From Sphingopyxis sp. FD7 (GTDB lineage Bacteria > Pseudomonadota > Alphaproteobacteria > Sphingomonadales > Sphingomonadaceae): DNA of 64,000 bases. Of the stretch, positions 4,333 through 41,548 are shown piece by piece. Under the pieces are notes generated by a model that was not told the DNA's origin, made no database searches, and worked only from the letters and a program-made list of their open reading frames with translations. The stretch covers positions 2,790,001 through 2,854,000 of the forward strand of contig NZ_AP017898.1 in NCBI RefSeq assembly GCF_003609835.1, given 5' to 3'. Both the position numbers and the translations under genes were made by a program. Numbering within the stretch: the stretch's first letter is position 1; each line of letters begins with the position of its first letter.

Positions 4333-4405
4333 TGCTCCGCCGGGAAGGTCATTTGCCTTGACCTAACCCCAAGGAAGCACAGCGACCGGGGCCCGCTGGC
4401 GGACC

Positions 4406-6941: not shown

Positions 6942-7384
6942 TGTTCTGCTCCTGAAAGAATGATCGCGTCGCGCCAGGCGAAACGGGCGCCGCCCGCCGC
7001 GCTCACCGGCTCGATCGCTAGAAGGATAAGATCGCCGCGCTCGACCGGCAGCGCGGCGCGCAGCTCGCCCCGCTTCCAGTCGCCCACCGCGCCGTAATCC
7101 CACGCTGCGCGACTGCCCGCTGCCCAGCGCCCCAAGGCGTCGGCGTTGCGTTCGATGTCGGCCAGTGCAATCGGCGCCAACGCGGCCGGTACAAGATAAA
7201 GCCGCAAGGTCGCTGGGTCGGTGCCCTTGATCTCGACGGCGGCATCCACGGCCGGGGCAGGTGCGGTCATCTCGGCCGAAGCGACGAGCGTTATCGCGTC
7301 GATAGAGCTGGCGCGGTCCGAGCTGCACCCCGGCGCGAGCGCGAAGGCGGCAATCGCCATCGTCAAGCGTGCGAACTTCATCAT
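6938..7384 (-). CDS. secreted or lipoprotein-like protein in the tail operon
   Basis: A 148-residue protein that overlaps its neighbours on both sides by ATGA, so it is translated in the tail operon. The N-terminus (MMKFARLTMAIAAFALAPGC) looks like a signal peptide ending at a Cys, but the -2 Pro does not match a standard lipobox. The rest lacks known motifs. A signal-bearing protein between the J-like and fibre genes is unusual. It could be a lipoprotein that blocks superinfection or a tail-tip subunit whose N-terminus only resembles a signal. Confidence 0.55.
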   Translation of the reverse strand: MMKFARLTMAIAAFALAPGCSSDRASSIDAITLVASAEMTAPAPAVDAAVEIKGTDPATLRLYLVPAALAPIALADIERNADALGRWAAGSRAAWDYGAVGDWKRGELRAALPVERGDLILLAIEPVSAAGGARFAWRDAIILSGAEQ

Positions 7385-14745: not shown

Positions 14746-14900
14746 GATGGCCTCCTGTCAGAATATGGCGGGGATGTTCGGCTCCCCGCGCCGGACCCTG
14801 ATTGACGGCCAACATTGGGCTGTCGCTCGCTCCGGCACGATCGTCGGCTAGGCGCCGCCGCCCCGAACGGCAGCCGCACGCCATCACAGCCCCTCGGGTG

Positions 14901-15845
14901 TCAGGTTGCGGTAATGACCAGATCGTCCTGGCCGGCGAGGATGTTCATGCGGATGTCCATTTCCCACATCAGCTTGCGGTCTTCCTCGGTCTCGTTGATC
15001 GAGACGATCTGCGTCTGCGCGCAGGCGACCTCCACGATATTGCCGGCCGCGACGCCGTGCGTCAGGTTCAGGTCCATGATCGACGAGCTGTCGAGCGCTG
15101 CCAGATAGTCCTTCGCGGCCATCGACGGCGCTTCGACGACAAGCCGCCCCGTGATCGCATGGTCGCCCCGGTTGACATAGCGCGAGCCGATCAGGTTGCG
15201 CAGGCTGATCCCGACGCCGGCGTTGAGCGTCAGGCTGCGCGTGATGACCGCGAAGCCATCTAGCAGCAGCAGCGTGTTGTCGGTGTTGACTTCCAGCGGG
15301 TCGATCCAGCGGTCGATGGTCGCCGCGCCGGGGGCATTGACGTCGCGCGGAGCGGCAGCGGGGATAAGGCACGTATAATTGAGCCCGATGAACGGATAGG
15401 CGCCCGCGGTGAAATCCATGGTAAAGGTGCCGCGCGAACCCAGCCCCTTGCGTCGCTGGTCGCCCATCCAGTGATACTGCGTCAGCGACGATTGAGGGAC
15501 ATTGGCGGCGGCCATACGCTGCTCCGCGCTTACCCCAGGGGAAAGCACCGGGGCAGCCATGCCGCACGCTTCGAGCAGCTCCATCCACGCGGGAGCGGTG
15601 CCAGCGGCGCCCGATCCCGCAACCTCGACCTCGTAGCTCAGCTCCTGCCGCTTGTTCGTTGCCAGGATCGGCGTCGCGCCGAAGCTGCCGCGGTCAAGGT
15701 TGCGTTCGAGGGGGTCGGTAATCAGCGGCGACGCGCGAAAATTGCGCGTAAGGATCGCATTGGCAGCGAGCGTCGGCGCGGCGTCGGTGCCATAGGCCAC
15801 CTCCTTTTTCGCGGCGAGCACTTTGACGGCGTCAACCATCGACAT
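14901..15845 (-). CDS. tail tube protein
   Basis: A 314-residue protein in the tail-tube position (before the chaperone and tape measure). The start SMVDAVKVLAAKKEVAYGTD is typical of tube proteins of B3-like phages. It is rich in beta structure and Gly/Ala. Without a sheath gene nearby it defines a non-contractile tail. It overlaps the preceding small gene by 14 bp. Assignment rests on synteny and overall resemblance. Confidence 0.78.
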   Translation of the reverse strand: MSMVDAVKVLAAKKEVAYGTDAAPTLAANAILTRNFRASPLITDPLERNLDRGSFGATPILATNKRQELSYEVEVAGSGAAGTAPAWMELLEACGMAAPVLSPGVSAEQRMAAANVPQSSLTQYHWMGDQRRKGLGSRGTFTMDFTAGAYPFIGLNYTCLIPAAAPRDVNAPGAATIDRWIDPLEVNTDNTLLLLDGFAVITRSLTLNAGVGISLRNLIGSRYVNRGDHAITGRLVVEAPSMAAKDYLAALDSSSIMDLNLTHGVAAGNIVEVACAQTQIVSINETEEDRKLMWEMDIRMNILAGQDDLVITAT

Positions 15846-16134
15846 TCTCCTGTCCGCCCGCGTCCGGCTTCAGCGCGGGATCTTCGATATTGGCCTCGGC
15901 GAGCCAGCGACGCCGCGCGACGCCCGACGTCGGCAGGCCATGCTCGTCCAGCTCAAGGCCGGATTTCGGATCGCGAGCGCGCGGCGCGGTCGGCGCGGCC
16001 TGCGTCGTCGTTCGTTCGGCCTCCTTGCCCTTTCGGCCCTTGGGGGCCTTGTCCTCGACGGGCGGCGGGGTGGTCACCTCGCTGCCATTCTCGCCGGGGG
16101 TTGACTGGAACGCGGGATCGGTGTCATCCGCCAT
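15832..16134 (-). CDS. small Pro/Lys/Thr-rich protein, unknown function
   Basis: A 100-residue polar protein rich in Pro, Thr and Lys (TTPPPVEDKAPKGRKGKEAE). The frame ends 14 bp inside the tail tube gene. Its composition suggests a disordered protein. No family recognised. The ribosome site AGGAAAGGAA precedes the ATG and lies in a duplicated segment (16131-16285). Confidence 0.5.
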   Translation of the reverse strand: MADDTDPAFQSTPGENGSEVTTPPPVEDKAPKGRKGKEAERTTTQAAPTAPRARDPKSGLELDEHGLPTSGVARRRWLAEANIEDPALKPDAGGQENVDG

Positions 16135-16285
16135 CAGCTGTTTCCTTTCCTAAGTCTCCATGCGGCCATAAGGTCCGCCTCCACTGCGAGCGGGGGTCCG
16201 TCAGCGGACATCGGTTGTCGCCCATGCCTTCGGCGCACCGCCATCAGCTGCTTCCTTTCCTCAGTCGCCATGCGGCCGTAAAATC
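16131..16285. repeat. imperfect direct repeat: duplicated end of the gp37-like gene
   Basis: Two ~45-bp copies (about 16131-16175 and 16241-16285; period 110 bp) carry the same last residues, AAWRLRKG[SN]S, stop codon, and ribosome site. Upstream of this the first copy still resembles the gene (ADGPPLAVEADL versus ADGWGVAWAVDF). This looks like a decayed partial gene duplication. Confidence 0.75.
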
Positions 16286-16672
16286 GACGGCCCAGGCAAC
16301 CCCCCAGCCGTCAGCGGCTATCAGCCGCCCGCCGGCATAATCGCAGGCGCCCGAGGCGTCGGGATGCTTCCAGCCGGTCAGCGCATCCATCACCTTGACG
16401 ATCTGCTCCTCCAGCTCGCGCGACGGGCTGCCGTCGACGCGCATCTTCGGCTTCAGCACAATGACGACACGGAACATCGTCGCGACCCGCTGGTCGTGGA
16501 TGCCGTTCATCTCATTGGGCCGCGCGGTCTCGCGATCGGGGATGACGAACAGCGCGGGGCTATGCGCCGGCGCCGCCTTCAGTCCCGCCCATTCGAGCAC
16601 GCCCGCGACCTCCCGAAAGCCGCCCGCGATCAAGCGATCGACGATCGGCTGCGCCCGGATCAGCCGGATCAT
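16244..16672 (-). CDS. gp37-like protein (tail terminator/completion candidate)
   Basis: A 142-residue protein overlapping the G-like gene by ATGA. Its place after gp36 and G and before the tail tube, with the N-terminal pattern of a helix followed by FVIPDRETARPNE and a beta-rich second half, fits Mu gp37/tail terminator proteins that cap the tail tube. The terminal residues are duplicated downstream. Confidence 0.65.
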   Translation of the reverse strand: MIRLIRAQPIVDRLIAGGFREVAGVLEWAGLKAAPAHSPALFVIPDRETARPNEMNGIHDQRVATMFRVVIVLKPKMRVDGSPSRELEEQIVKVMDALTGWKHPDASGACDYAGGRLIAADGWGVAWAVDFTAAWRLRKGSS

Positions 16673-17178
16673 GCCGCAGCCCCCGCGTTCATCGCACGCA
16701 GCAGATGGCCGACCAGGATGCGGTCGATCGCCATGATGTCGTCATCGGAAAAGCCGAGGAATGACCGGCGCGGCATGGTGACGCTGGCGCGATAGCCGAA
16801 CGGCGTGTCGAGCGCCTTGCCCGTCTTCGGTCTGATCGTGCCCCCGAATTGATGGATCTTGCCATAGATCGCCGGGCCGCCGGTGCCATAGACGCCGACC
16901 GAGGCGAAATCCTCGCCGCTCTGCCGTTCGAGCGCATTATACAGGTCGCCGCTCGCCTGGAGCGTCTTGCGCCCCTCCTCGATCGCGGCGGCCGATTTCT
17001 TCCAGGGAATGCCCAGCGGGTCGCGCTCTTCCTGAAAGCGGTCGAGCGTTCCTTCGAACATCGCCTCCGACGACTCGGCCATTGGTGCCGACAGATCCGA
17101 CGCGGCCTCGCGCAGCCGACGCAACGTCGGCGCCAGCGCGTCGACCGTCGTGATGTCGATGTCCAGCCCGGCACTCAT
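16669..17178 (-). CDS. virion morphogenesis protein (Mu G-like)
   Basis: A 169-residue protein with the family pattern: long N-terminal helix, then DPLGIPWKK, GRKTLQASGDLYNAL and IYGKIHQFGGTI, ending MPRRSFLGFSDDD. These match the Mu G / virion morphogenesis family, which acts in head completion or head-tail joining. The gene follows gp36 with an ATGA overlap. In Mu, G lies next to F; here it is on the other strand in the head-tail block, as in B3-like phages. Confidence 0.85.
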   Translation of the reverse strand: MSAGLDIDITTVDALAPTLRRLREAASDLSAPMAESSEAMFEGTLDRFQEERDPLGIPWKKSAAAIEEGRKTLQASGDLYNALERQSGEDFASVGVYGTGGPAIYGKIHQFGGTIRPKTGKALDTPFGYRASVTMPRRSFLGFSDDDIMAIDRILVGHLLRAMNAGAAA

Positions 17179-17918
17179 CGGCCGTAGGACCGCAGGCCGC
17201 CGACATAGCCCGAAAGCGCGTCGGGATAGGCGCGTCCGCCCGAATGGAACGAAACGCCGCCCTCGTCGGACGGCGGCGCGGCGGTCGCGCCCGGCAGGCT
17301 CGACTTGCCGTCCTCGATCCGCTCCAGCGCGCGCTGCGCGGCCTTCGCGGGCGCTTCGATCCCGTCGGGCGCGCCATTCGGATAGAGCCGCGCGCGGGCG
17401 ATGTCGCCGATCCAGACCTTGACGATCTCCGGCACATCGGCGAGCGGCATCGTATAGCGGCTGCCGAGCGCGGCCTGGACGATCGCCTGGGCAGCGGTCA
17501 GCGCGCCGACGAGCAGATCCTTGCCGATGCGGCCGTCGCCGCGCTCGTCGGTCATGCGGACGGTTTCGTCCAGGCCGAACCGCTGGACAAATTCCGCGAT
17601 CGTCAGCATCGGCGCCCCGCCGTCGGGCATCGCCCAGGCGAGATCGAGCACGGCGACTTCGACTTCATCCTGCGCGCGCGCGCCGCCGGCGTCGTCGACG
17701 GTGACGGTCACCAGATATCGCTCGCCAGCCCCGCCTTCGCGAAGTTCCAGCGTCAGCGCCGAGGCTAGCAGATTGCCGACGGCCACCAGCTCGGGCGCGC
17801 CGGGCACGAGCCCGCGCGCCTCGACCTCGATGCCGACAAGGTTGCTGATCGTCGTCACTCCGCCGAATTCCATCGGCAGGCGGGCGATCTCGGCAGGCTG
17901 TTTGACGACCAGTTTCAT
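17175..17918 (-). CDS. gp36-like (DUF1320) protein with an extra N-terminal domain
   Basis: A 247-residue protein starting ATG 17918. The C-terminal ~145 residues match the Mu gp36/DUF1320 family: MLTIAEFVQRFGLDETVRMTD, ...ALGSRYTMPL, and VPEIVKVWIGDIARARLYPNG. The first ~100 residues are an extra beta-rich domain (EVEARGLVPGAPELVAVGNLLASALTLEL...). The domains are joined at the internal Met, so it could be a fusion of two formerly separate genes, or two start sites in one gene. Likely a connector or adaptor near the portal. Confidence 0.72.
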   Translation of the reverse strand: MKLVVKQPAEIARLPMEFGGVTTISNLVGIEVEARGLVPGAPELVAVGNLLASALTLELREGGAGERYLVTVTVDDAGGARAQDEVEVAVLDLAWAMPDGGAPMLTIAEFVQRFGLDETVRMTDERGDGRIGKDLLVGALTAAQAIVQAALGSRYTMPLADVPEIVKVWIGDIARARLYPNGAPDGIEAPAKAAQRALERIEDGKSSLPGATAAPPSDEGGVSFHSGGRAYPDALSGYVGGLRSYGR

Positions 17919-18130
17919 CGGCCGCGAACCCTCTTTGCAAGCCGGATGCAGCGCGTGATGGCTTCGTCGGCAAACAGGGCAATCAGGAGGAAGAACCAAA
18001 GCGCCGCGGCGACGCCGCCCCATGTCGCCAGTCCAACGCGCTCGCCCCTGGGCGCGGCAACGACCCCGGCCGTGACGATCAAGGCCAGCCCGGTCGAAAT
18101 GGTGAGATAGAAGATGGCGAACGCCTGCAT
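17915..18130 (-). CDS. small membrane protein (two hydrophobic segments)
   Basis: A 71-residue protein starting ATG 18130, overlapping the gp36-like gene (ATGA). Two membrane segments are seen (about residues 3-22 and 31-50), ending in a basic tail. A longer frame to 18265 is rejected because it lacks a good start and its extra residues look like a shadow. No family recognised. Its role among head genes is unclear. Confidence 0.55.
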   Translation of the reverse strand: MQAFAIFYLTISTGLALIVTAGVVAAPRGERVGLATWGGVAAALWFFLLIALFADEAITRCIRLAKRVRGR

Positions 18131-18131
18131 C

Positions 18132-18359
18132 TCAGCCTCCCGCGACCGGATAGCGAAGCGCCGCAGCGGCAATCCCGCCCCCGACGATCCACCCGACCGC
18201 GCCGGCAAGCGCCGCGAGCAGCCCGAGCAGAAACAGACCGAGCCCCATTTCGAACATCGGCACATAGGCCCGGTGACCCAGCCGGACGACGGGCAGCGCC
18301 ATCAGGATAACACCGATCAGCATCACTACGCCGGCGATCTGCGACAGCAGCTCGCTCAT
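18132..18359 (-). CDS. small membrane protein (two or three hydrophobic segments)
   Basis: A 75-residue, almost wholly hydrophobic protein (IAGVVMLIGVILMALP, MGLGLFLLGLLAALAGAVGWIVGGG). It stops one base before the next membrane protein gene and overlaps the gene above. The pair in the head operon is not typical of Mu. Possible roles are holin or membrane morphogenesis factor; neither is supported by motif. Confidence 0.55.
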   Translation of the reverse strand: MSELLSQIAGVVMLIGVILMALPVVRLGHRAYVPMFEMGLGLFLLGLLAALAGAVGWIVGGGIAAAALRYPVAGG

Positions 18360-18640
18360 GCTTTCTGGGCCTTGGGTTTCGGCGCAGCCTTTGGCTTCAT
18401 CGGCGCCTTGGGCTTCGCAGCCGCAGGCGATGCGGCGGGAGCGGGTGTCGGCGTCGGCGTGGGTGTTGGGGTCGGTGCGGGCTTTGGTGCAGGCGACTTC
18501 GCCAAGGTCGGCACCGGCTTCAGCGCGCCGATCGCGACCAACTTGTCGCCCTGGGCTTCCCGCAGCGAAACGATCGTGCCCGGCGGGATGGGCTTCTTTC
18601 TGCCGTTCGACAACGGCGTAACGACTTCATAATCGGGCAT
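18356..18640 (-). CDS. head-operon protein with Pro-Thr repeat tail (gp35-like position)
   Basis: A 94-residue protein starting ATG 18640. Residues 1-~45 are compact (VVTPLSNGRKKPIPPGTIVSL) like Mu gp35-type small head proteins. The rest is a low-complexity Pro/Ala/Thr/Lys tail with a PTPTPTPTP run. It follows the capsid gene directly and overlaps the membrane protein gene by ATGA. The tail may be a flexible linker. Confidence 0.58.
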   Translation of the reverse strand: MPDYEVVTPLSNGRKKPIPPGTIVSLREAQGDKLVAIGALKPVPTLAKSPAPKPAPTPTPTPTPTPAPAASPAAAKPKAPMKPKAAPKPKAQKA

Positions 18641-18721
18641 GGTCGAACCTCTTGAATTTGGGGAAAGGTGGGCCGCCTCCAAGATACCCCTGGAGTGCGG
18701 CCCACGATTGCTGCGCGGCGA

Positions 18722-19663
18722 TTAGGCCCCGGCACCCTGGAACAGGAACCCGGCGTCAGCGCCGACCAGCTCGGCCGAGAATTCGTCGAAAACATCATTG
18801 TCCCAGCTGCGCGTGTCCTTTTCCCACTGGCTGGGCGACACGAACGGATGCGCTTCGAGCTGATAGGTGTAGCCATAGCTCGGCAGTGGCATCGCGCGCT
18901 GGCCTTCGGGCGGGACATAGGCGAGGATCGCATCATCGCCCCAGATGTCGACGGTGGTGTCGTCGTCCTGGTCGTAGATGCCGTCACCGGACACGACGAG
19001 CGGAATGTCCAGATATTCCTGGAGCATCGCGTTGGAGATCGTCGCTGCCGTCGTGTGCTTGAAATGCTCGAGCACCTTGGGATGGTCCTTCAGCGCCTTT
19101 CGCGCGGTAGCAGCAAGCGCAAGCGTGTTCGGGCGCTTGCCCGTGCGGCCGCGGATCACTTCGACTGCGTCGCTGATCTGCGTTCGCGGGTCGCTGTCGG
19201 GATGGGTCCAGACATCGGTTCCGGCGAGGGCAAGCTTGTTGGTCGCGGCATAACTGGCGGCATTGCGCGCGACCTCGGCCTGCTGGATTTCCTTCTCCAT
19301 CGCGATCACCGCCAGCACGATATCGACGGCGCTCTGCTGAAGGTCGATGCCCGGAACCGCGGCGGCTTCGCCGATATATTCGATCGGCACCGATGCGCGC
19401 AGGGCTTCCTGATGCAGGTTCACCGCCTTGCCTTCATAGCCGAATTCGAGCTGCGCGATGCGGGCGCCGGGCGCGCGGCGCGTCTTGCGACGACGGAAGC
19501 TCGACCGGTCGAACTCGATGCGCTTGGCGGCGCGCGTCGGCATGGTGACCGTCGGGAAAAGGAAACGCCCGATAAATTCGGCCTGGACATAGCCTCGGGC
19601 ATGGTTGGACAAAATCGGATCGACGACGCGAACCTGTGCGGCATTCATTCCCGGACCGGTCAT
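18722..19663 (-). CDS. major capsid protein
   Basis: A 313-residue protein in the capsid position after the protease/scaffold and decoration genes. Motifs of the family with the HK97-type fold used by B3/D3112-like phages include an N-terminal arm, QAEVARNAASYAATNKLALAG, and LKDHPKVLEHFKHTTAATISN. Beta-rich C-terminal part. It should be the most abundant late protein and build the icosahedral head. Assigned by synteny and overall resemblance. Confidence 0.85.
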   Translation of the reverse strand: MTGPGMNAAQVRVVDPILSNHARGYVQAEFIGRFLFPTVTMPTRAAKRIEFDRSSFRRRKTRRAPGARIAQLEFGYEGKAVNLHQEALRASVPIEYIGEAAAVPGIDLQQSAVDIVLAVIAMEKEIQQAEVARNAASYAATNKLALAGTDVWTHPDSDPRTQISDAVEVIRGRTGKRPNTLALAATARKALKDHPKVLEHFKHTTAATISNAMLQEYLDIPLVVSGDGIYDQDDDTTVDIWGDDAILAYVPPEGQRAMPLPSYGYTYQLEAHPFVSPSQWEKDTRSWDNDVFDEFSAELVGADAGFLFQGAGA

Positions 19664-19712
19664 GGATGATATTCCTCGTTACTGTTGAAAAAGGGGGTGA
19701 CAGTGGCGCCGA

Positions 19713-20051
19713 TCAGTGGACCAGCAGCACCTCGATAAGGTCGCCGTCAGCGACGGCGGCCTGAAGCGCATAGGCGGCGATCGGCCCGACGCCCGCCTGG
19801 GCGATGCCCTTGCCGCTGCCGTCGGCCGCGGGCTTGATCGGGCCACCGACAGCAATCGCACCGCCCGCTTCGAGCATGGCGGTGCCGAGCACGCGCACCG
19901 ACAGGGCGACGCCAACGGCTGCGCCATAGGCGGAGACGCCGAGCGGTTGCTCGCCGTCGGCGGCATGATTGCCGGTAAAATCGACGAACCGTGCAGCTGA
20001 GATGCCGGTCGCGGCCGAAACCGTGAGGGAAAGAATGGGGGACTGCTGCAT
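19713..20051 (-). CDS. capsid decoration/stabilisation protein
   Basis: A 112-residue beta-rich protein, Gly/Ala-rich (VGVALSVRVLGTAMLEAGGAIAVGG and PAADGSGKGIAQAG), between the protease and the capsid genes. This size and sequence style match head decoration proteins of the DUF2190 type in transposable phages. It should bind the outside of the head after expansion. Confidence 0.7.
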   Translation of the reverse strand: MQQSPILSLTVSAATGISAARFVDFTGNHAADGEQPLGVSAYGAAVGVALSVRVLGTAMLEAGGAIAVGGPIKPAADGSGKGIAQAGVGPIAAYALQAAVADGDLIEVLLVH

Positions 20052-20095
20052 CGGTGTTCCTTTCAGTCAGGCAGCGAAAAGGGAGGCGGGAGGCG

Positions 20096-20611
20096 TCAGC
20101 CGCCCGCGCGGCGGACGGCCTCCATCCAGCCGAGCTTGGGATTTTCGGCCTGGAGCGCGGCGGCCTTCGCAAAGATTGCCGCGCGGGCGGGATCGACCTC
20201 GTAACCGGCGGGCGCGGCAAAGCTCGCGAGCTGGCCATCGATCGCCTTGCCGTCGTCGGCCGCGATTTCGCCCAGGCTGACGAGCGGCTGCGCCGTGTCG
20301 AAGATCTTCATCAGCGCGGCGCGCGGGCTCATATCGGCAACGCCCTCGCCAAAGCTGACGACATCGTCGCCGCCAAGCGCATCGAGCACGCCGACCAGCA
20401 GCGCCTTGCCCTCGGGCTTGATTTTCGCTTCCTTCAGCAGCCCTTCGGCAAAGCTGACGTTCGCGTCGTGACGTTCCTTCGCGGCTTTTTCGGCCGCAGC
20501 CCGCTCGCGCTCAGCGATGCGCTCCTCGCGTTCGGCGAGCGATTGTTCGCGTTCGGCGAAGCTCGCTTCCCAATCCTTGCGGGCATCCTTGTTGTCGTCG
20601 GTGGGCGGCAT
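20096..20611 (-). CDS. nested scaffold protein (internal start, Mu Z-like)
   Basis: An in-frame ATG at 20609-20611 is preceded at ideal distance by CAGGAG (20618-20623). Translation from here gives 171 residues made of the coiled-coil scaffold and C-terminal domain, without the protease. Mu I/Z and lambda C/Nu3 use the same nested layout. Expression from the internal start is inferred. Confidence 0.6.
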   Translation of the reverse strand: MPPTDDNKDARKDWEASFAEREQSLAEREERIAERERAAAEKAAKERHDANVSFAEGLLKEAKIKPEGKALLVGVLDALGGDDVVSFGEGVADMSPRAALMKIFDTAQPLVSLGEIAADDGKAIDGQLASFAAPAGYEVDPARAAIFAKAAALQAENPKLGWMEAVRRAGG

Positions 20612-21082
20612 GACTTTCTCCTGCTCAAAGGTGACGAGGTCGCCGGCATCACCGGCTGCGAAACTGACCCGCCCCAGCCCCTTCACGCCGGGCGCGTGCG
20701 CGCCCAGGAAGCCGACATGCTTTAGGTAAAACTGACCGGGCGTGGGATTGTGCGGGTTGTCGGGCGGATAGAATTGCGCCGACACCTTGGCGTAGCGGCC
20801 CGCCTTCACCGCCTCGGCAAAGCTGGGCTCCAGCTGGGCGGGATCGGGATAGGCCAACAGCTCGTCACCCTGGACCTCAAGCCGGTCGATCCAGCCATAG
20901 GCGGGATCGTTGAGCTGCGGATGACCGATGACGAGCGGGGCGGGGTTGGCGGCGGGGTCATAGCTCGCCGCGATCGCCGCCAGATCGCCTTCGCCAAGCG
21001 ACACCTTGACCCCTTCGACGGACGTGAAGGTGCCGGTGCGGAAAAGGCGGATCGGTTTGAGGGCGGCGGCGGCGTTCGTCAT
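20096..21082 (-). CDS. prohead protease/scaffold (Mu I-like)
   Basis: A 328-residue protein starting ATG 21082. The first ~160 residues match the Mu I protease family (LVIGHPQLNDPAYGWIDRLEV; YAKVSAQFYPPDN; GQFYLKHVGFLGAHAPGVKGL). The C-terminal half is a charged coiled coil (EASFAEREQSLAEREERIAERERAAAEK), the scaffold. An internal start at 20611 can make the scaffold alone. The protease matures the prohead by removing the scaffold. It is the first gene of the leftward head block. Confidence 0.85.
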   Translation of the reverse strand: MTNAAAALKPIRLFRTGTFTSVEGVKVSLGEGDLAAIAASYDPAANPAPLVIGHPQLNDPAYGWIDRLEVQGDELLAYPDPAQLEPSFAEAVKAGRYAKVSAQFYPPDNPHNPTPGQFYLKHVGFLGAHAPGVKGLGRVSFAAGDAGDLVTFEQEKVMPPTDDNKDARKDWEASFAEREQSLAEREERIAERERAAAEKAAKERHDANVSFAEGLLKEAKIKPEGKALLVGVLDALGGDDVVSFGEGVADMSPRAALMKIFDTAQPLVSLGEIAADDGKAIDGQLASFAAPAGYEVDPARAAIFAKAAALQAENPKLGWMEAVRRAGG

Positions 21083-21095
21083 GCCCCGCACTTAG

Positions 21096-33500: not shown

Positions 33501-34034
33501 GTGGCGCCCCGTTCCTCTATCGAGCGCAACCCGGCCCTTCAGGCTGCCGTCGAACGGCTGATCGCCGAAGGCGAGCACACGATCGACGAGATCCACGAAG
33601 CGGTCGCCGAATATGGCGTCTCGCGCTCGGCCGTCGGTCGCTACGCCAATCGCTACCGCCCGCTTGTCGACACCATCATCCGCGATCGCGCCGTCCGGCA
33701 GGCGATGCAAAAGCATCTGCCTGCCGGCGTGGACACCGGCCTGATCGACATCGCCATCCATCGCGCGCAGTCGGAAGTCCTGCGCGCGATGGATGCCATG
33801 GGCGACGATGAGGAGCCCGCGAACGCCGATCGCATCGCCAAGCTCGTTCGCGCTCTCAATGGCGTCATCAAGGCGATGCGCGAAAAGCGCGAGTTCGAGG
33901 AGGAGGTCCGCGCCAGCGAACGTCAACGCGCCGCCGACGCGGCCGTCGAGGCATTGGCCGAAGCGGGCGCCGGCGAAGCACAGATCGACACGATCCGCCG
34001 CCGCATCCTCGGTATGCGGGAAAAGCCGCAATGA
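33501..34034 (+). CDS. terminase small subunit (DUF3486, Mu gp27-like)
   Basis: A 177-residue protein from GTG 33501. N-terminal HTH (HTIDEIHEAVAEYGVSRSAVGRYANRY) and C-terminal coiled coil (REKREFEEEVRASERQRAADAAVEAL). This fits the Mu gp27/DUF3486 family that recognises the pac site. Precedes the large subunit with one gene between. Confidence 0.82.
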   Translation: MAPRSSIERNPALQAAVERLIAEGEHTIDEIHEAVAEYGVSRSAVGRYANRYRPLVDTIIRDRAVRQAMQKHLPAGVDTGLIDIAIHRAQSEVLRAMDAMGDDEEPANADRIAKLVRALNGVIKAMREKREFEEEVRASERQRAADAAVEALAEAGAGEAQIDTIRRRILGMREKPQ

Positions 34035-34456
34035 GCGGTGCCGATCAGCCCGAACCGCTCCTGCGCTTTGCCGGGCGGCGCCCCGACGAGGGCATCCGCG
34101 CGGCCACGCCGTTTCCGCTCGCGGTCGCGCTGCGCGACTATGCGATCGCGCGGGGGCTCGCGATCGACAAGCTGGAGCGCAGCCGCGTCCGCGTGTCCGG
34201 GAGCATTTATCTCGCGATGACCGATTGCAGCGGGCGCTGCTGGAATATGCGCGTCTCCAACCATCGCCGCCCGCGACGCACCGGCCATCCGACCCCGCAC
34301 ATCGATCTCATCAGCTTGGACGGCGTCGCCGGCATCGCCGTCGGTCGCCGCCTGATCGACGACATCATCGCCGGGAATGTGCCGTGGTTCGATCCAGACG
34401 CGACCGTCCGCCCCCTCCCGCGCACCCGCCGCAACAGCAGGATACGCCGCCGATGA
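34031..34456 (+). CDS. small protein between terminase subunits, unknown function
   Basis: A 141-residue basic protein with ATGA overlaps on both sides. It has IDKLERSRVRVSGSIYLAMT and a basic tail. No family recognised. Not present in the standard Mu order. Confidence 0.55.
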   Translation: MSGADQPEPLLRFAGRRPDEGIRAATPFPLAVALRDYAIARGLAIDKLERSRVRVSGSIYLAMTDCSGRCWNMRVSNHRRPRRTGHPTPHIDLISLDGVAGIAVGRRLIDDIIAGNVPWFDPDATVRPLPRTRRNSRIRRR

Positions 34457-36129
34457 ACGCCGCCGCCGAAGCCCCGACGGTGCTGCTGCCGTATCAGGTC
34501 GAAAGCATCGAACTCGCCGAGGAGCATCAATTCCTCGTGGTCGAAAAGTCGCGCCGTATCGGCCTGTCCTACGCCTTCTCGCCCTGGGCGAACCTTATGG
34601 CATCGGTCGCGACCGGCGCGCAGAACGTCTACTATATCGGCTACAATCTCGACATGGCGCGCGAGTTCATCGGCTATTGCGCCGACTTCGCGCAGGCATT
34701 CGAGGATGTCCGCGTTTCGCTGCCCGACGAGGATCGGGCCGACAGCTTCGTCCAGCGCCGTTTCGACGGGAGCTATCTCGATACGGCGGGCAAAGTCCTG
34801 GTCGATGCCGCCGACGGCGATTTCCGCTCCGATCGCGTTGTCCAGGAGGCGCGCGGCGGCTTCCTGATCAAAGGCGACGCCGGCAAGTCGATCAAATCCT
34901 TCCGGATAGACTTTCCGTCGGGCAAGGCGGTGGTCGCGCTGCCGTCCAGCCCGCGATCGGTGCGCGGTAAGCAGGGCATCTTCATCATTGATGAAGCGGC
35001 CTTTCACGACAATCTGGAAGAGCTGATCAAGGCGATCCTCGCCGCCCTCATGTGGGGCGGCCGCGTCATCGTCATTTCGACCCACGACGGCACTGACAAT
35101 TATTTCAACACCCTGGTCGAAGAGATCCGCGCCGGCAAGCGCGGCGGCCACGTTCACCGCATCACGCTGAAGGATGCGATCGCCGCCGGGCTCTACCAGC
35201 GCATTTGCCTTGTCCAGGGGAAGGACTGGACGCCCGAGGCCGAGGCGAAGTGGGAGGCCGATCTCCGCAAGACCTATGGCGACGCCGCCGACGAAGAGCT
35301 GGACGTTATTCCTTCACGCGGGACCGGCACCTATCTCGCGCGCGCCACGATCATCGAAGCGATGTCGGCCGAACTCCCCGTCGTTCGCCTTCGCTGCCCC
35401 GATGGCTTCGAACGGTGGGATGACGAACGACGCCGCGATTGGCTGCTCGAATTCCTTGAGGACGAGGTCAAGCCCTGGCTCGGCAGCTTCGATCCCTCCC
35501 GCCGCACCTTCATGGGTCAGGATTTCGCGCGCTCCGGCGACGTCTCGCCGGTCAAGTTTGGGCAGCATGACGAATATATGCGCTTGGTCTGCCGACTGAC
35601 GCTGGAAATGCGCAATGTCCCCTTTTCGGATCAGGAATTCATCCTCGAATGGCTGATCCGCCGCGTCCCGCATTTCGCCGGCGGCAAGATGGACGCCCGA
35701 GGCAACGGCTCGGCGCTCGCCGAGAAAATGCAGATGCTCTTCGGCTTCGATGTGATCGAGGCGGTGATGGCGAGCGACAAGACCTACCTGAAATATATGC
35801 CGCTGCTGAAAGCGGGGATCGAGGATCGGACGTTCGTAATCCCCTATGACGAGGGCGAACTCGACGATTTGCGGATGATCAAGATGATCCGCGGCATCCC
35901 GAAAATCCCCGACGGACCGCAGCGGAGCAAGGAAGACGGCAAGATCGCCCGGCGCCACGGCGATAACGCGATTGCCGACATGCACCTGATCGCCGCCGCT
36001 GCCGAAGATCCCGGCGACATCGAATTCATGAGCGCCGGCTCGCGCACAAGCAACGCCGGTGACTTCGGCACCAGCAATCGCGGCTTCGGCACCGTGTCGC
36101 GCCGCTCATCCGGAGGATTTGGACTATGA
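34453..36129 (+). CDS. terminase large subunit (Mu gp28-like)
   Basis: A 558-residue protein from ATG 34453. The ATPase has a Walker A-like EKSRRIGLS (31-39) as in Mu gp28, and Walker B GIFIIDEAAF (175-184). The nuclease half contains GQDFARSG (near 360) and FAGGKMDARGNG. It cuts and pumps DNA into heads; in Mu-like phages it takes host DNA on past the right end. Confidence 0.92.
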   Translation: MNAAAEAPTVLLPYQVESIELAEEHQFLVVEKSRRIGLSYAFSPWANLMASVATGAQNVYYIGYNLDMAREFIGYCADFAQAFEDVRVSLPDEDRADSFVQRRFDGSYLDTAGKVLVDAADGDFRSDRVVQEARGGFLIKGDAGKSIKSFRIDFPSGKAVVALPSSPRSVRGKQGIFIIDEAAFHDNLEELIKAILAALMWGGRVIVISTHDGTDNYFNTLVEEIRAGKRGGHVHRITLKDAIAAGLYQRICLVQGKDWTPEAEAKWEADLRKTYGDAADEELDVIPSRGTGTYLARATIIEAMSAELPVVRLRCPDGFERWDDERRRDWLLEFLEDEVKPWLGSFDPSRRTFMGQDFARSGDVSPVKFGQHDEYMRLVCRLTLEMRNVPFSDQEFILEWLIRRVPHFAGGKMDARGNGSALAEKMQMLFGFDVIEAVMASDKTYLKYMPLLKAGIEDRTFVIPYDEGELDDLRMIKMIRGIPKIPDGPQRSKEDGKIARRHGDNAIADMHLIAAAAEDPGDIEFMSAGSRTSNAGDFGTSNRGFGTVSRRSSGGFGL

Positions 36130-38168
36130 ACGCTCGCACCCGCAAGCGGACGGCGACGGCCGCGAACCGCAGGCTGCCGGCGCAGCTCGGCGCGGAGATC
36201 GCGACGACGGCCGACGGCCGCGACATCACCCAGCCATTCATTTCGGGGTTGCGCCAGCCCGCCGATCCGCGCCTTGCCGGTGCGGTCGATTGGGGCGTCT
36301 ACGATAGCGTCTATCAGGACGATCAGGTCAAATCGACGTTCCAGCAGCGCCGTCTCGCCGTCGTCAAGCATACCTGGTCGACCTTGCCTGGCGACGAGAA
36401 TGATCCGCGATCGGTCGAGGCCGCCGAACGCTTCGGCGCGACGATGGACCGCATCGGCTGGGACCGCATCACCGACAAGATGCTCTATGGCATCTATAAC
36501 GGATACGCCGTCTCCGAAATCATGTGGGGCGCCCGTGATGGGCTGATCGACATCGACCGCGTTAAGGTCCGCCACGCGCGCCGCTTCCGCTACGACGCGC
36601 AAATGCGGCTCCGGATGCTGACCATGGCTGGTGGCCTCGGCGAGATTCTGCCCGATCGCAAATTCTGGGTGTTCAAGTCGGGCGGATCGAACGACGACGA
36701 GCCCTATGGTCGCGGCCTCGCCGAATGGCTCTATTGGCCGGTGCTGTTCAAGCGCAACGGTATCGGCTTCTGGAACATCTTCCTCGACAAGTTCGGCTCG
36801 CCGACGGCCGTTGGCAAGTTCCGGCCCGGCACGCCGAAGTCCGAGCAGGCCAAATTGCTCGCCGCGCTGCAGGCGATCGCCACCGACAGCGGGATTGCTG
36901 TTCCAGAGGGCATGGTAATCGAGCTGCTCGAAGCCGCGCGATCGGGAACCGGCAATTACGAGCAGCTCGTCCGCTACATGGACGAGGCGATCGCCAAGAT
37001 CGTCCTCTCGCAGACGATGACCACGCAAAACGGCTCCAGCTTGAGCCAGGCCGAGGTGCATCAGGACGTGAAGTTCGAAGTCGTCAAATCCGACTCCGAT
37101 CTGCTCTGCGACAGCTTCAATGCCGAGGTGCCCCGCTGGTGGACCGATCTCAACTATGGCCCCGACGTCGCCAGTCCGATCGTCTCGCGCCCGGTCGAGC
37201 AGGAAGCCGACACCAGGGCGCAGGCCGAAACCGACGAAAGCCTTGACCGCCTCGGCTGGGTCCGCACCGAGGAAAGCTTCCGCGACACCTATGGCGACGG
37301 CTATGTCCGCAAGCCGAAAGCGGCCGATCCCGCCGATGGCGACAAGGTCGACGTCGACGATCCGGACGCCGACGAGGCGAACGATAACGATCCCGCCGAT
37401 CCCAATGTCAACGACCGCAATATCAGCTTCGCGGCCGACGATCCGCGCCCGCTCTACGTTTACCGTCCCTTGACCGAGGAAAGCGCGACCGAGCTGCTCG
37501 CCTGGGCGCGGGAGGAGGGCTTCACCGAATTGATGGAGCCCAAGGATCTGCACGTCACCGTCATGTATTCCCGCCGCCCGGTGAATTGGATGAAGATGGG
37601 CGGCTTTTGGGGCTGGGGTCCAGACACGAGCGAGCATCTCGTCCCCTTCGGCGGCCCGCGCCTGGTCGACCGGATTGGCGCCGACGGCGCCGTCGCGCTC
37701 CACTTCTTCTCGGGCCATCTCAACCAGCGCAATCGCGAGATGCGCGACGCCGGATGCAGCTGGGATTATCCCGACTATCTGCCGCACATCACCTTCACTT
37801 ACTGGCCGGGCGACGTCGACCTGAAAAAGGTGACCCCGTTCCGCGGCGAGCTGCGGTTCGGTCCCGAGGTTTTCGAGCCGATCCAGTCGGAGTGGGAAAA
37901 GGAAATCCGCGAGGCGAGCTTCGCCGAAAGCGACGTCCCCGACAGTGCGACCGACAAACTGGTCGACGATCTGATCGCCGAAGACGGCTACCGCGCCGTC
38001 CGCGCGCTCACCGATCCCATGCTGGGCGCGATCCGCGCCGCCCGGTCACCCGCCGAGCTGCTCGCCATCCTCGGCGCCGGCCCCGGCGACACCGCGCCGA
38101 TCGGCGCCGACCTCGAAGCCGCCGGCCTCGCCGCCTCGCTCGATGCCGGGGAGAGCAACGATGACTGA
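36126..38168 (+). CDS. portal protein (DUF935, Mu gp29-like) with inserted 2H phosphoesterase-like domain
   Basis: A 680-residue protein. Residues ~30-345 match the Mu gp29/DUF935 portal core (DDQVKSTFQQRRLAVVKHTWS; DKMLYGIYNGYAVSEIMWG; PYGRGLAEWLYWPVLFKRN; VLSQTMTTQNGSS). The last ~75 residues also match the family end (ATDKLVDDLIAEDGY...AARSPAELLAIL). Between them, residues ~440-590 carry two HxT motifs, H476-V-T478 and H554-I-T556, spaced as in 2H phosphoesterases, after an acidic linker (407-427). Most gp29 proteins are nearer 500 residues. 2H enzymes include Acb1, which cuts cyclic nucleotides to defeat CBASS. The insert's substrate is unknown. Confidence 0.88.
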   Translation: MNARTRKRTATAANRRLPAQLGAEIATTADGRDITQPFISGLRQPADPRLAGAVDWGVYDSVYQDDQVKSTFQQRRLAVVKHTWSTLPGDENDPRSVEAAERFGATMDRIGWDRITDKMLYGIYNGYAVSEIMWGARDGLIDIDRVKVRHARRFRYDAQMRLRMLTMAGGLGEILPDRKFWVFKSGGSNDDEPYGRGLAEWLYWPVLFKRNGIGFWNIFLDKFGSPTAVGKFRPGTPKSEQAKLLAALQAIATDSGIAVPEGMVIELLEAARSGTGNYEQLVRYMDEAIAKIVLSQTMTTQNGSSLSQAEVHQDVKFEVVKSDSDLLCDSFNAEVPRWWTDLNYGPDVASPIVSRPVEQEADTRAQAETDESLDRLGWVRTEESFRDTYGDGYVRKPKAADPADGDKVDVDDPDADEANDNDPADPNVNDRNISFAADDPRPLYVYRPLTEESATELLAWAREEGFTELMEPKDLHVTVMYSRRPVNWMKMGGFWGWGPDTSEHLVPFGGPRLVDRIGADGAVALHFFSGHLNQRNREMRDAGCSWDYPDYLPHITFTYWPGDVDLKKVTPFRGELRFGPEVFEPIQSEWEKEIREASFAESDVPDSATDKLVDDLIAEDGYRAVRALTDPMLGAIRAARSPAELLAILGAGPGDTAPIGADLEAAGLAASLDAGESNDD

Positions 38169-38832
38169 TCGCGCGATCATCGACAAAATCCGCAAGCTGC
38201 TCGCACTCGCGAAAGGTTCGACTGAGCATGAGGCGGCCGCCGCGCTCGCCAAGGCGCGCGAAATGATGGACGCGCACGGCGTGTCCGACGCGCATATCGC
38301 TATGGCCGATATCGAGGAGGCAACCGCGCGCGCATCGCGGACGCAGCGACCGCCGCGATGGGAAGGCATCTTGTGCGCCACCGTGCGCCGCGCCCTTGGC
38401 GTGGAAGTCTTCATCACCGCTTGCGGCGACCGAACCTACGTCGGGCGGGCACCGGCGGCTGAGATCGCGGCCTATGCCTTCGCAGTGCTGTTTCGTCGGC
38501 TGAAGGCGGCGCGCGCAGACTATATCCGGACGCAGCTCAAGCGGTGCGGACCGGCGCGGAAACGCCAACGCGCCGACATATTCTGTGAAGGGTGGGCAAT
38601 CGCCGTTTTCCAGAAGATCGCTGAGCTGATGCCCGAACCGCAAGGAGATGAACTGATCGGCCAATATCTGGCTGAGAGGCATCCGCACCTCGCGCCCGTC
38701 GGCTCCCGCGCTGCGAAGCTCAAAGGCCGAGTCGCGGGCAACGACTATTGGCGCGGTCGCGAGGCGGGTCATGACGTCCAGCTTCATATGGGTGTCGGCG
38801 GCACAGCCGCGCGGCTGGCGTTGCCAGCGTGA
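38161..38832 (+). CDS. DUF2786-containing phage protein
   Basis: A 223-residue protein from ATG 38161. The N-terminus (IIDKIRKLLALAKGSTEHEAAAALAKAREMMDAHGVS) is a clear DUF2786 domain. The rest contains conserved Arg/Cys and two DY/GW motifs (FCEGWAIAVFQKI; GNDYWRGREAG). DUF2786 proteins are common in phages and are of unknown biochemistry. Overlaps the portal gene by 8 bp. Confidence 0.75.
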   Translation: MTDRAIIDKIRKLLALAKGSTEHEAAAALAKAREMMDAHGVSDAHIAMADIEEATARASRTQRPPRWEGILCATVRRALGVEVFITACGDRTYVGRAPAAEIAAYAFAVLFRRLKAARADYIRTQLKRCGPARKRQRADIFCEGWAIAVFQKIAELMPEPQGDELIGQYLAERHPHLAPVGSRAAKLKGRVAGNDYWRGREAGHDVQLHMGVGGTAARLALPA

Positions 38833-39176
38833 AGCGGGCGCGGCCGACATATCCGCGCGTCAATTGCCTCGTGCCGGGCTGCAAGCGGGGCACGACTCGC
38901 GCCGCGCCGCATAACGACGGCTCGCCGCCTGAAGTCATCTGCGGGCCGCACTGGCGCACCGTGCCGAAGGAATGGCGGCGGCGTCTCTCGCTATACGCGC
39001 GTCGATATCGCGCGGCCGAGGCAAAGGATGACCAGCGCGGCATGAGGATGGCGGGTCAGCTCTGGTGGTCGCGCTGGCGCCGCATCGGCGATCTATTTCG
39101 CGAGCCCGAGAGCGAAATGGTCGAGGACATGCCGATTACCTTGGTCGAACGGCTCAAGGCAGAGGGCCTGCTATGA
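38829..39176 (+). CDS. small Cys/His protein, unknown function
   Basis: A 115-residue protein from GTG 38829. CLVPGC...ICGPHW looks like a small zinc site. The rest is basic and helical (WRRRLSLYARRYRAAEAKDDQRG). It lies between portal and MuF. No family recognised. Confidence 0.55.
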   Translation: MKRARPTYPRVNCLVPGCKRGTTRAAPHNDGSPPEVICGPHWRTVPKEWRRRLSLYARRYRAAEAKDDQRGMRMAGQLWWSRWRRIGDLFREPESEMVEDMPITLVERLKAEGLL

Positions 39177-40402
39177 CGACGCGCCCCGACCTCCGCGACA
39201 CGATCTACATGGACCCAGGCGACATCATTGCCGCCTGGGTCGAGCGGTCGAACTATCGCTTTTCCGAGCATTGGACCGACACTTGGCAGGAAGAGCACGC
39301 GGCAGCCTTCACCGTCGCCAAGATCGCGAAGCTCGATCTCCTCACCGCGATCCACAAATCGCTCGACGACGTCATCCAAGGCGGCGGCACGTTCGAGCAG
39401 TGGAAGGCGAACCTGCTCCCCGAGCTGAAGAAGCACGGCTGGTGGGGCGTCGTCCAGGACGAGGCGCTGACCGGCACGCCCGATCCCGTCATTGTCAACG
39501 AACGCCGCCTGCGCACAATCTACCGGACCAACATCCGGATGAGCATGGCGGCTGGCCGGTGGCGCAAATATCAGCGCGAAAAGGAGCTGTTCCCCTATCT
39601 GCGTTACCGCTCTGACCATTTCCGCAAGCACCCGCGCCTCGATCACAAGAGCTGGCACGGCCTGATCCTGCGCGTCGATGATCACGCGTGGCAATGGATG
39701 TTCCCGCCTAACGGCTGGGGCTGCAATTGCCGCGTCGAGCAGGTCAGCGAAGCGCGGATGCGCCGCATGGGCTGGAAGCTCGACGAGGCGCCCAATCCGC
39801 CGCGCCACGACTTCATAACGGCGGCGGGCGAGATCGTGTCGGTGCCGCAGGGTGTCGCGCCGGGCTTCGGCTACAATCCCGGCACCGCGCACCTTCGCGT
39901 CCTCGCCGATCGCGCGACGGCTTCGCTGAAATCCGCCCTTGCGGCTGGCAACGATCAAGCCGCCCACCACACGCTCCGTCAACTGATCGGCGACCCGGCG
40001 TTCGAGCAGTTCCTTGCGATGCCGGATGGTGCGTTCCCCGTCGCGATCCTCGATCCGGATCATCAGGCCACGATCGCGGCCGCATCGCGCATCGTCATGC
40101 TGCCGGGCAAGGTATATCGCAAACAACTGGGCGAGTTCCCCAACATTTCTTCCGGTCATCCCGAACTGACGATTGCGGATTATCGGATGCTTCCCGACAT
40201 CGTCGAACGTGCCATTCTCGTCGCGATGCAGGGCGACAACCGTTTGATCTATTTCGCTGACGAAGCTGGCCGTCTCTGGAAGGCGGTAGTTCGTCAGGAC
40301 GCCGGGGTCGGATTTCCGGCGGTGGTGAGTTTCCACAGGAGTCGCGCGCGCAACATCGCACCCGAAACGCGCAATCTCGAAATCCTGCTGGATCGCCGCT
40401 AA
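39173..40402 (+). CDS. MuF head-morphogenesis protein with C-terminal nuclease-like domain
   Basis: A 409-residue protein from ATG 39173. Residues ~1-125 are the helical head; residues ~130-200 are the MuF core (RKYQREKELFPYLRYRSDHF, DHKSWHGLIL, MFPPNGWGCNCRVEQVSEAR). Residues ~300-405 resemble the phage-barnase-EndoU-ColicinE5/D-RelE (PBECR2-like) nuclease domain: SSGHPELTIADY with His329, MLPDIVERAILV, RLWKAVV with Lys370 and SFHRSRARN with His388. MuF is a minor head protein injected or placed at the portal, and such C-terminal domains are known toxins or effectors. A ~210-bp copy of the core lies inverted at 22153-22362. Confidence 0.82.
   Translation: MTTRPDLRDTIYMDPGDIIAAWVERSNYRFSEHWTDTWQEEHAAAFTVAKIAKLDLLTAIHKSLDDVIQGGGTFEQWKANLLPELKKHGWWGVVQDEALTGTPDPVIVNERRLRTIYRTNIRMSMAAGRWRKYQREKELFPYLRYRSDHFRKHPRLDHKSWHGLILRVDDHAWQWMFPPNGWGCNCRVEQVSEARMRRMGWKLDEAPNPPRHDFITAAGEIVSVPQGVAPGFGYNPGTAHLRVLADRATASLKSALAAGNDQAAHHTLRQLIGDPAFEQFLAMPDGAFPVAILDPDHQATIAAASRIVMLPGKVYRKQLGEFPNISSGHPELTIADYRMLPDIVERAILVAMQGDNRLIYFADEAGRLWKAVVRQDAGVGFPAVVSFHRSRARNIAPETRNLEILLDRR
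39566..39777 (+). repeat. MuF-derived inverted repeat, right copy (partner 22153-22362)
   Basis: The copy within the intact MuF gene. It is paired with the fragment in the repressor operon. Confidence 0.8.
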
Positions 40403-40702
40403 TGACGGAAGGGGCAGCGAGCGGCAGGGACTTCCGGTCCCCTGCTAAAGCGGTCGACGGCCGAAACCTCGCGCTACGGAGGGAAGAATTCACCGCGTCG
40501 CGCTCACTGCACGGCCGATATAGCACCCAAGCCATCAATTCTCAATTCCCGCCGAAAGAGGCGGGGGAAAGGGCGTTGGCGCGCCCTTTAACCGACGGAG
40601 GACACCCGTCATGGCCCAACCGGTTCCGCTCTAGAAAACGAAGAGCTGGACCACCCCGCCTGTCCGACCGGACGGCGGAACGAATAGGGAACATTGATAA
40701 TC
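40403..40702 (+). other. non-coding leader between MuF and the methyltransferase
   Basis: About 300 bases with no convincing protein. A strong hairpin (GCAGGGAC/GTCCCCTGC, 40424-40445, one bulge) follows the MuF stop and may terminate or stabilise mRNA. At 40611-40634 a strong GGAGGA ribosome site leads into a 7-codon frame (MAQPVPL) ended by TAG, after which the frame stays open 20 more codons (SWTTPPVRPDGGTN). A bulged hairpin (CCGCC-T-GTCC-GACC-GGAC-GGCGG, 40656-40678) ends 25 bases before the methyltransferase start. These look like translational control of the methyltransferase. Confidence 0.5.
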
Positions 40703-41548
40703 GTGTCGAGTCTGCCTTCCTCTCCCGCGGCGGGGCTGTCGCCCGTTGCGCCGACCCGTCCTGTCGCAGGCTACATCGGTGGCAAGCGCAACCTTGCCAA
40801 GCGTATCGTGCAGCGGATCAACACTATCCCGCACGTCACCTATGCGGAGCCCTTCGTCGGCATGGGCGGTATTTTCCTGCGCCGGGATCATCGACCGCAG
40901 GCCGAGGCGATCAACGATTGGTCGGCCGATGTTGCGACCTTCTTTCGCATCCTCCAACGGCACTACGTCGCCTTCATGGACATGCTTCGCTTCCAGCTGA
41001 CGACGCGGCTGGGTTTCGAGCAGCTTCTTCGCACCGATCCGACCACGCTGACCGATCTGGAGCGCGCCGCGCGCTTCCTTTATCTTCAGCGGGCATCCTT
41101 CGGCGGAAAGGTCGCCGGCCGCGTCTTCGGCGTGTCGCCGACGACGGCGGCGCGCTTCGACATCACCAAGCTGGCGCCGCTGCTCGAAGCGGCTCATGAG
41201 CGGCTGGCATCCGTCACGATCGAGCGGCTGCCCTGGTCGGAGTTTATCACCCGCTATGACCGGCCGGGGACGCTCTTCTATCTCGACCCGCCTTATTATG
41301 GGTCTGAGCGCGACTATGTCGGCGACGATTGCAAGCCTCTTTTCGAGCGCAGGGAGTTCGAGGCGATGGCCGAGCAACTCGGCGCCATCCGCGGGCGCTT
41401 CCTGCTCAGCGTCAACGACCATCCGGACGTCCGCGCGATCTTCGCGGGCTTCGATATGGAGGCCGTCAAGACCACCTATTCGGTCGGCGGGATGGACCGC
41501 GCCAAGCGCGTCGGCGAGCTGGTCATTTCAGGAGGGGGCAGCGGGTGA
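40703..41548 (+). CDS. DNA adenine N6-methyltransferase (D12 class)
   Basis: A 281-residue protein from GTG 40703 (AGGGAA site ~11 bases upstream; TTG 40694 is an alternative). Motif I EPFVGMGG (49-56) and motif IV DPPY (195-198) are clear, and the N-terminus has GYIGGKRNLAK as in Dam-type enzymes. It is an orphan (no nuclease next to it), so it probably protects phage DNA or alters regulation. It is the last gene before the right end, the place of the DNA-modifying mom gene in Mu. Confidence 0.88.
   Translation: MSSLPSSPAAGLSPVAPTRPVAGYIGGKRNLAKRIVQRINTIPHVTYAEPFVGMGGIFLRRDHRPQAEAINDWSADVATFFRILQRHYVAFMDMLRFQLTTRLGFEQLLRTDPTTLTDLERAARFLYLQRASFGGKVAGRVFGVSPTTAARFDITKLAPLLEAAHERLASVTIERLPWSEFITRYDRPGTLFYLDPPYYGSERDYVGDDCKPLFERREFEAMAEQLGAIRGRFLLSVNDHPDVRAIFAGFDMEAVKTTYSVGGMDRAKRVGELVISGGGSG

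Follow-up and report, generated by a model that had tools for sequence, protein, structure and literature searches.

Why should the portal protein of a Mu-like prophage carry an enzyme of the kind that degrades cyclic nucleotides, and how could portal- or MuF-fused effectors of this sort leave the capsid? The question is raised by an open reading frame (ORF) in a 64,000-nucleotide stretch of the Sphingopyxis sp. FD7 genome (contig NZ_AP017898.1, positions 2,790,001 to 2,854,000), referred to here as the window. The ORF encodes a portal with a 2H phosphoesterase domain of the Acb1 family inserted in its C-terminal part (Table 1). The observation is real; the parts are ordinary and their arrangement is unusual. 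The best explanation as a whole, to which we give an even chance, is that Acb1 is freed from the portal by the head-maturation protease and blunts signalling of the kind used by cyclic oligonucleotide-based antiphage signalling systems (CBASS).

An Acb1 domain within a Mu-type portal

The N-terminal part of the ORF matches the Portal_Mu family PF06074 (DUF935) over positions 3–335 of the 336 in the model, and the tail (residues ~602–680) aligns to the tail of portals of ~520 residues that lack Acb1. The initial annotation had described a DUF935 portal with an insert and both ends present, and this is the arrangement found. It had also placed two HxT motifs in the insert, and H476-V-T478 and H554-I-T556 lie exactly there. 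The 2H domain that it proposed can now be named more narrowly, as the Pfam match to Acb1 scores 122.3 bits against a curated cut-off of 27, which is far beyond chance and picks out one 2H family. In PHROGs the ORF matches portal families together with family 755, named ‘RNA ligase’; the T4 record labels 57B, the T4 gene of Acb1 (PMC9117128), with the same name. A search of NCBIfam gave no match.

The predicted model of the full-length protein is of moderate quality, with a mean predicted local distance difference test score (pLDDT) of 70.6 and a predicted template modelling score of 0.48. The Acb1 part is better, and the linker region falls to a pLDDT of ~38–43 over residues 401–440. Foldseek matched this model first to the JBD30 and Mu portals (ranks 1–3), with the Acb1 structure 7t26 at rank 18 (target template modelling score, TM, 0.78). 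Modelled alone, the domain has a mean pLDDT of 86.0 and retrieves 7t26 and 7t27 at ranks 1–2 (7t26 target TM 0.75), with LigT structures lower. The predicted domain thus fits the Acb1 crystal structures best, as the initial annotation would have it for a 2H fold.

By sequence, the nearest solved structures are the Pam3 portal (8hds, residues 468–619, E 3.6e-23) and Acb1 of Erwinia phage FBB1 (7t26, E 1.4e-6). A search of the PDB with a profile of 50 relatives strengthened both matches (8hds E 7.5e-47, 7t26 E 3.5e-18), and the chains 9q2g and 9q2y, both deposited under the name ‘Anti-CBASS protein Acb1’, came next. The best 50 Foldseek matches to the isolated domain did not include the Pam3 portal, the presence of 8hds in the library being unconfirmed; this hints that the Acb1 part may not be modelled in 8hds.

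The window domain shares with T4 Acb1 (gp57B) and FBB1 Acb1 (7t26/7t27) the family PF23474, the HxT/HxT arrangement, the positions of Y12, E141 and W147, and the best fold match. In contrast to these separate small proteins, it is part of a portal, has W74 replaced and has candidate protease sites on both sides. The Pam3 portal and other fusions of Acb1 to Phage_portal_3 are likewise portals with Acb1, and the Pam3 domain is 34% identical to that of the window. However, they belong to another portal family and carry Acb1 at the very C-terminus, and the second motif of Pam3 is HxS.

Table 1. Window coordinates of the portal gene, its parts and related head genes
Feature	Coordinates	Strand	Evidence
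Mu-type portal with Acb1 cassette, 680 residues	36126..38168	+	ORF; Pfam Portal_Mu and Acb1
Portal core, residues 58–390, Portal_Mu PF06074	36297..37295	+	E 4.2e-96; Foldseek JBD30/Mu portals ranks 1–3
Flexible acidic linker, residues 391–433	37296..37424	+	low pLDDT; variable in alignment
Upstream motif S434-F-A-A437, candidate head-protease site	37425..37436	+	position and flank counts
Acb1 domain PF23474, residues 442–592, HxT at H476/T478 and H554/T556	37449..37901	+	E 1.7e-35, residues, fold
Downstream motif S598-F-A-E601, candidate head-protease site	37917..37928	+	position and flank counts
C-terminal tail, residues 602–680, common to portals without Acb1	37929..38165	+	alignment
Head-maturation protease/scaffold, 331 residues, repeated SFAE/SFAA-type motifs	20096..21091	-	phrog_976 E 4.3e-81
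MuF-type minor head protein	39065..40402	+	PF04233 E 2.3e-15; phrog_220 E 3.9e-77
Terminase large subunit, mechanical ORF, true start probably further downstream	33793..36129	+	phrog_2 E 8e-28

Active-site residues

In T4 Acb1 the catalytic tetrad is H44/T46/H113/T115, with Y12, W74, F107 and W147 stacking on the nucleotide and E141 contacting adenine (PMC9117128). Relatives were compared as a sample of loci (L numbers) formed from the best 80 of 372 matches and from searches of relatives, family genomes and named phages, a sample that favours near relatives. Positions in the window domain were read from row L003, whose domain is 100% identical to it. The tetrad is H, T, H, T, and the residues at Y12/W74/F107/E141/W147 are Y, D, Y, E and W, four of the five being alike in kind. 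The active site is thus kept in the sequence, and one T4-type contact differs.

The same picture holds for 30 different aligned Acb1 domains from Mu-type portals. T46 and H113 are present in all 30, and T115 is T in 28 and S in two; Y12 is likewise invariant, E141 is kept in 29 and W147 in 28, and position 107 holds Y or F in 25 domains and H in the other five. The initial annotation had named loss of the HxT motifs in close homologues as a point that would tell against a 2H domain; they are mostly kept, the first histidine alone being lost in two of the 30. The portal-borne Acb1 domains of those two, L014 and L052, are otherwise intact despite this natural loss. A wider set of 98 domains gives a similar residue picture.

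An accessory cassette under purifying selection

Related portals of ~520 residues lack Acb1 at the same place in the alignment. Close portals are found that have no Acb1 at this site; the domain is therefore an accessory cassette, one that the portal itself does not need. On a 42-row tree of portal cores the insert requires five changes, at least four of them on starred branches, and sister pairs with and without it are found (L015 with, L036 without; likewise L025 and L041). Presence and absence in L025/L041 and in L047/L054 were judged from proteins and codon views, the DNA alignments being misaligned at the insert. Excision at direct repeats in the DNA was considered and rejected: the common right border of L015 and L036 is sharp and the left border is not shared, and therefore no mechanism of gain or loss is claimed.

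The ratio of non-synonymous to synonymous substitution rates (dN/dS) of the Acb1 domain is 0.06–0.28 in nine portal pairs, in two of which dS exceeds 1, and by this measure the domain is under purifying selection. Among 298 genomes of the host family, nine have an Acb1 match at E<=0.001. Eight of these exceed the cut-off and lie in frames of 615–701 residues; by translations and local profiles, three of these eight are on Mu-type portals and five on the other type. The same genomes hold 13 strong Portal_Mu matches, three of them with Acb1. Four matches occur in 398 genomes of the phylum, two over the cut-off (frames of 628 and 701 residues).

Motifs bracketing the cassette are shared with the head-maturation protease

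S434-F-A-A lies immediately ahead of the cassette and S598-F-A-E immediately behind it. Two patterns were used for counting: a broad one, [SEADN][FL][AG][AEV], and a strict one, [VIA][SA][FL][AG][AE]. In 28 of 30 Mu-type copies the broad pattern flanks the cassette both upstream and downstream; when the letters of these flanks are shuffled, it turns up in 1.0 of 30 upstream and 3.2 of 30 downstream. The two misses are L118, with SFAL upstream (one letter off), and the distant L153. The clade L011–L019 has EFAA and SLAE/DLAE/NLAE variants throughout. Of 15 portals without Acb1, 13 match the broad pattern in the linker that precedes the tail, the exceptions being L053 and L060; the match entered for L060 in the flank counts (ELGV) is chance-like, and its linker reads SFSE. 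Left out of the motif counts were L049, L058, L059, L066 and L073 (contig ends), L061 (wrong frame) and the distant L067–L072.

Within the prophage the 48 called genes (12,387 residues) contain 11 copies of the strict motif, and the 23 flanking genes (7,315 residues) contain none; genes in both sets were called by a simple composition rule. Seven of the copies lie in the protease/scaffold protein (0.18 expected, reached in 0 of 20,000 shuffles), two in the portal (0.08 expected, 61 of 20,000 shuffles) and two elsewhere. The enrichment extends to 27 distinct related protease reads shorter than 400 residues, which hold 123 copies against ~4 expected. In 26 portal–protease pairs, 5-mers shared between the two proteins occur at 38 of 6,703 tail positions and at 7 of 10,010 core positions; the pairs are related to each other and so are not independent tests. 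They come from 37 records, four without a protease match, 26 of the remaining 33 being compared; the protease of L216 was mis-extracted. We read the motif as a putative recognition site of the protease. A motif x-D-A shared by portal linker and scaffold in Phage_portal_3 phages was rejected as too simple to count.

Comparison with Mu and other Mu-like phages

The link between portal and protease is seen with other motifs in related phages. Protease I of Mu contains three copies of AALSA, and the Mu portal has a single copy, within AALSAE (residues 427–432); in B3 the protease holds four copies of EFAE and the portal tail one. A motif-free exact test was applied to 14 Mu-like phages by scoring 4-mers that are repeated in a phage's own protease and present in its portal tail. 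It was positive in six (the window prophage, L051, Mu, B3, RR1-B and D3112), with a mean score of 2.1 for the own protease against 0.4 for foreign ones; the row for L060 is unreliable, its border between core and tail being mis-set. The sequences thus make the link clear in some phages and do not show it in others.

In the Mu virion structure (2025) the last 124 residues of the portal gp29 are absent, and the authors, citing Grimaud (1996), raise the possibility that protease I cleaves the C-terminus (PMC11915804). These 124 residues align with the stretch of the window portal that holds Acb1. The available parts of the JBD30 paper mention cleavage of the scaffold and make no mention of portal cleavage. 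The initial annotation supposed that a portal-borne copy would be present in every incoming head, which is not established. Given the alignment with the missing end of the Mu portal, delivery would need release and ejection of Acb1, not an enzyme fixed to the portal.

Proposed mechanism

In the proposed sequence of events, the Mu-like prophage would make its anti-CBASS phosphodiesterase as a cassette within the flexible C-terminal region of every portal subunit, giving, by analogy with Mu, perhaps 12 copies per head. Being part of the portal subunit, Acb1 would enter the prohead. The head-maturation protease would recognize a motif like x-S-F-A-[A/E] and cut on both sides of the cassette, releasing an Acb1 of ~160 residues (T4 Acb1 has 152) inside the head or in the producing cell. 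The freed enzyme would cleave adenosine-containing cyclic di- and trinucleotides at that site, or in the next host should it exit together with the DNA, and so blunt CBASS-type signalling.

Catalysis, cleavage and release are what we infer from the sequence, and the parts differ in strength. The domain is very probably an active enzyme of the Acb1 type, and it is probably aimed at CBASS-like signals. The flanking motifs suggest, without proving it, that the phage's own head protease cuts Acb1 loose, a step that could equally well be right or wrong. Ejection into the next host is doubtful. A broader version is equally doubtful: the portal would be a loading dock from which Acb1 is cut out in the prohead, the enzyme would remain in the head until ejected along with the DNA and would disarm cyclic-nucleotide defence before phage genes are expressed, and the cassette would move among unrelated portal families using the same route.

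Acb1 was originally discovered as a product of the infected cell; a copy built into the head and released by the maturation protease could be active from the very start of infection. This would give a reason for the occurrence of Acb1 on portals of three families, and flanking motifs in common with the protease of the same phage would be a simple sequence test of which domains fused to portals may be released. Head targeting, protease trimming and ejection would be shared with the internal proteins of T4 and with Alt, as these are generally understood; unlike them, the window Acb1 would be targeted by fusion to the portal, and its ejection is only a possibility. Alt is mentioned in the available text of Iyer (2017; PMC5512222).

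In general form the idea put forward by the initial annotation is already in print, and the assignment to Acb1 follows directly from Pfam. Fusions of 2H domains to MuF or portal proteins have been described as ‘polyvalent proteins’ (Iyer, 2017, PMC5512222; Iyer, 2022, PMC9503650), for which the earlier paper offered either action as an RNase or breakdown of defence nucleotides, and the later one proposed packaging, injection and counteraction of nucleotide signalling. The window portal belongs to the same class of fusion, an effector-type enzyme domain on a portal, and would share the proposed packaging and counter-signalling role; the available parts of these papers contain no Acb1 assignment, presence and absence of a cassette, or protease-bracketing motif. 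Searches of the open-licence literature, which does not extend to the likely Pam3 structure paper, yielded no account of an Acb1 cassette in Mu-type portals, of its presence and absence in close relatives, of its sharing among three families or of bracketing motifs that recur in the protease.

Weighing the alternatives

Several observations weigh against excision of an active anti-CBASS enzyme. The stacking W74 of T4 Acb1 is not kept in the window domain (D) and is replaced in all 30 Mu-type domains, none of which has an aromatic residue there, and the first histidine (H44), kept in 28 of the 30, is N in L014 and Y in L052. The motif was picked after the sequence had been seen, the strict pattern flanks the cassette on both sides in only 15 of 28 rows, and the shared motif could be one for scaffold binding instead of a cut site. 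Seven of the 15 portals without Acb1 have a further broad match nearer the end, so that ‘one copy’ holds only for the linker. In the motif-free test the own protease gives a score of zero for eight of the 14 phages, and for L051 and phiSHP3 foreign proteases score at least as high as the own one. Finally, no SMODS CBASS gene over the cut-off was found in the host genome, other CBASS synthase families lying outside that search; the sole SMODS match (23.2 bits against a cut-off of 26.5) was rejected, its ORF resembling a protein of the MNT-HEPN type.

The enzyme might instead act only in the producing cell, as part of unassembled or assembling portal subunits, against late or post-induction cyclic nucleotides, the fusion serving co-expression and dosage with no delivery. 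This is a credible possibility, if short of an even chance: portals are established late proteins, the packaging modules of Yong-M3-232 and ZHS include acb1 as a gene of its own, and T4 Acb1 is active from the lysate of infected cells (PMC9117128). It leaves unexplained, however, why portals of three families are the partners and why the cassette is bracketed by motifs. An action on RNA, either on 2',3'-cyclic ends, as the initial annotation allowed, or as an RNase, would suit membership of the 2H superfamily, the LigT structures also found by Foldseek, and the RNase role offered for portal- and MuF-fused 2H domains (Iyer, 2017; PMC5512222). We consider it unlikely, since the family is Acb1 by both Pfam and the PDB profile search, and the positions of the adenine contact E141 and the lid tryptophan W147 are kept (E in 29 and W in 28 of the 30 Mu-type copies), an argument that is weaker for Phage_portal_3-type copies, where E141 is E in only 39 of 60. 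That the domain is structural or a relic without a catalytic role appears very improbable, even though it is carried by a structural protein and its first catalytic histidine has twice been lost in nature, because the catalytic residues are otherwise nearly invariant and close portals lack the domain; purifying selection and this pattern of presence and absence led us to set it aside.

Acb1 on other head proteins and as separate genes

The initial annotation mentioned related domains fused to another portal family, and this is borne out by Pfam: besides PF06074, Acb1 is found on Phage_portal_3 (PF06381) and on Phage_portal (PF04860; L137 and L151). Named phages with portal–Acb1 fusions include Pam3, Rhizobium RHEph05 and Pseudomonas psageB2. 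The Mu-type combination was seen in prophages and virus contigs, and in none of the 12 named-phage matches whose surroundings were examined (among the 60 best of 321). By its Pfam matches Acb1 also sits on a protease-type head protein, in a 357-residue frame that combines ChaB, Acb1 and an XkdF-type protease domain (L028:5743-6813). One frame joins a Phage_portal_3 portal, Acb1 and then a PBECR3 nuclease domain (L147:1848-4223), and another has Acb1 at the N-terminus of 328 residues, with no Pfam match in its C-terminal half (L150:3914-4897).

A separate acb1 gene directly follows the portal gene in Yong-M3-232 and lies between terminase and portal in ZHS; in the stretches viewed of RcXuper, DSS3P8, a T4-like Yersinia phage and T4 it is away from annotated packaging genes. 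In a tree of the 98 domains, 93 rows (portal-borne copies with Yong-M3-232, L150 and L028) are set apart from five other separate genes with support 86/92. Since the Mu-type copies fall among the Phage_portal_3 copies, the domain has probably moved between portal families; long branches are flagged, and the tree resolves the number of moves poorly. The Acb1-like proteins at L089:3992-4444 (DSS3P8) and L090:2116-2715 (ZHS) are annotated ‘prohead protease’ and are probably misnamed. In T4, gene 57B adjoins ipI, the gene of an internal virion protein (L094:1592-2411).

Prophage setting

The prophage likely extends over ~2529–42374 of the window, by arithmetic from a matching IMG/VR contig of 39,846 bases and assuming colinearity. 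Its genes form a head/tail module at 3359–21091 on the minus strand, including protease and capsid, and a terminase–portal–MuF module at 33793–40402 on the plus strand. The two are on opposite strands and ~13 kb apart, where Mu has a single late run. A DUF2786/DUF7168 gene (38143–38832, plus strand) lies between the portal and MuF genes and overlaps the end of the former, and a D12-class adenine methyltransferase gene (40694–41548, plus strand) adjoins the MuF gene near the right end of the prophage.

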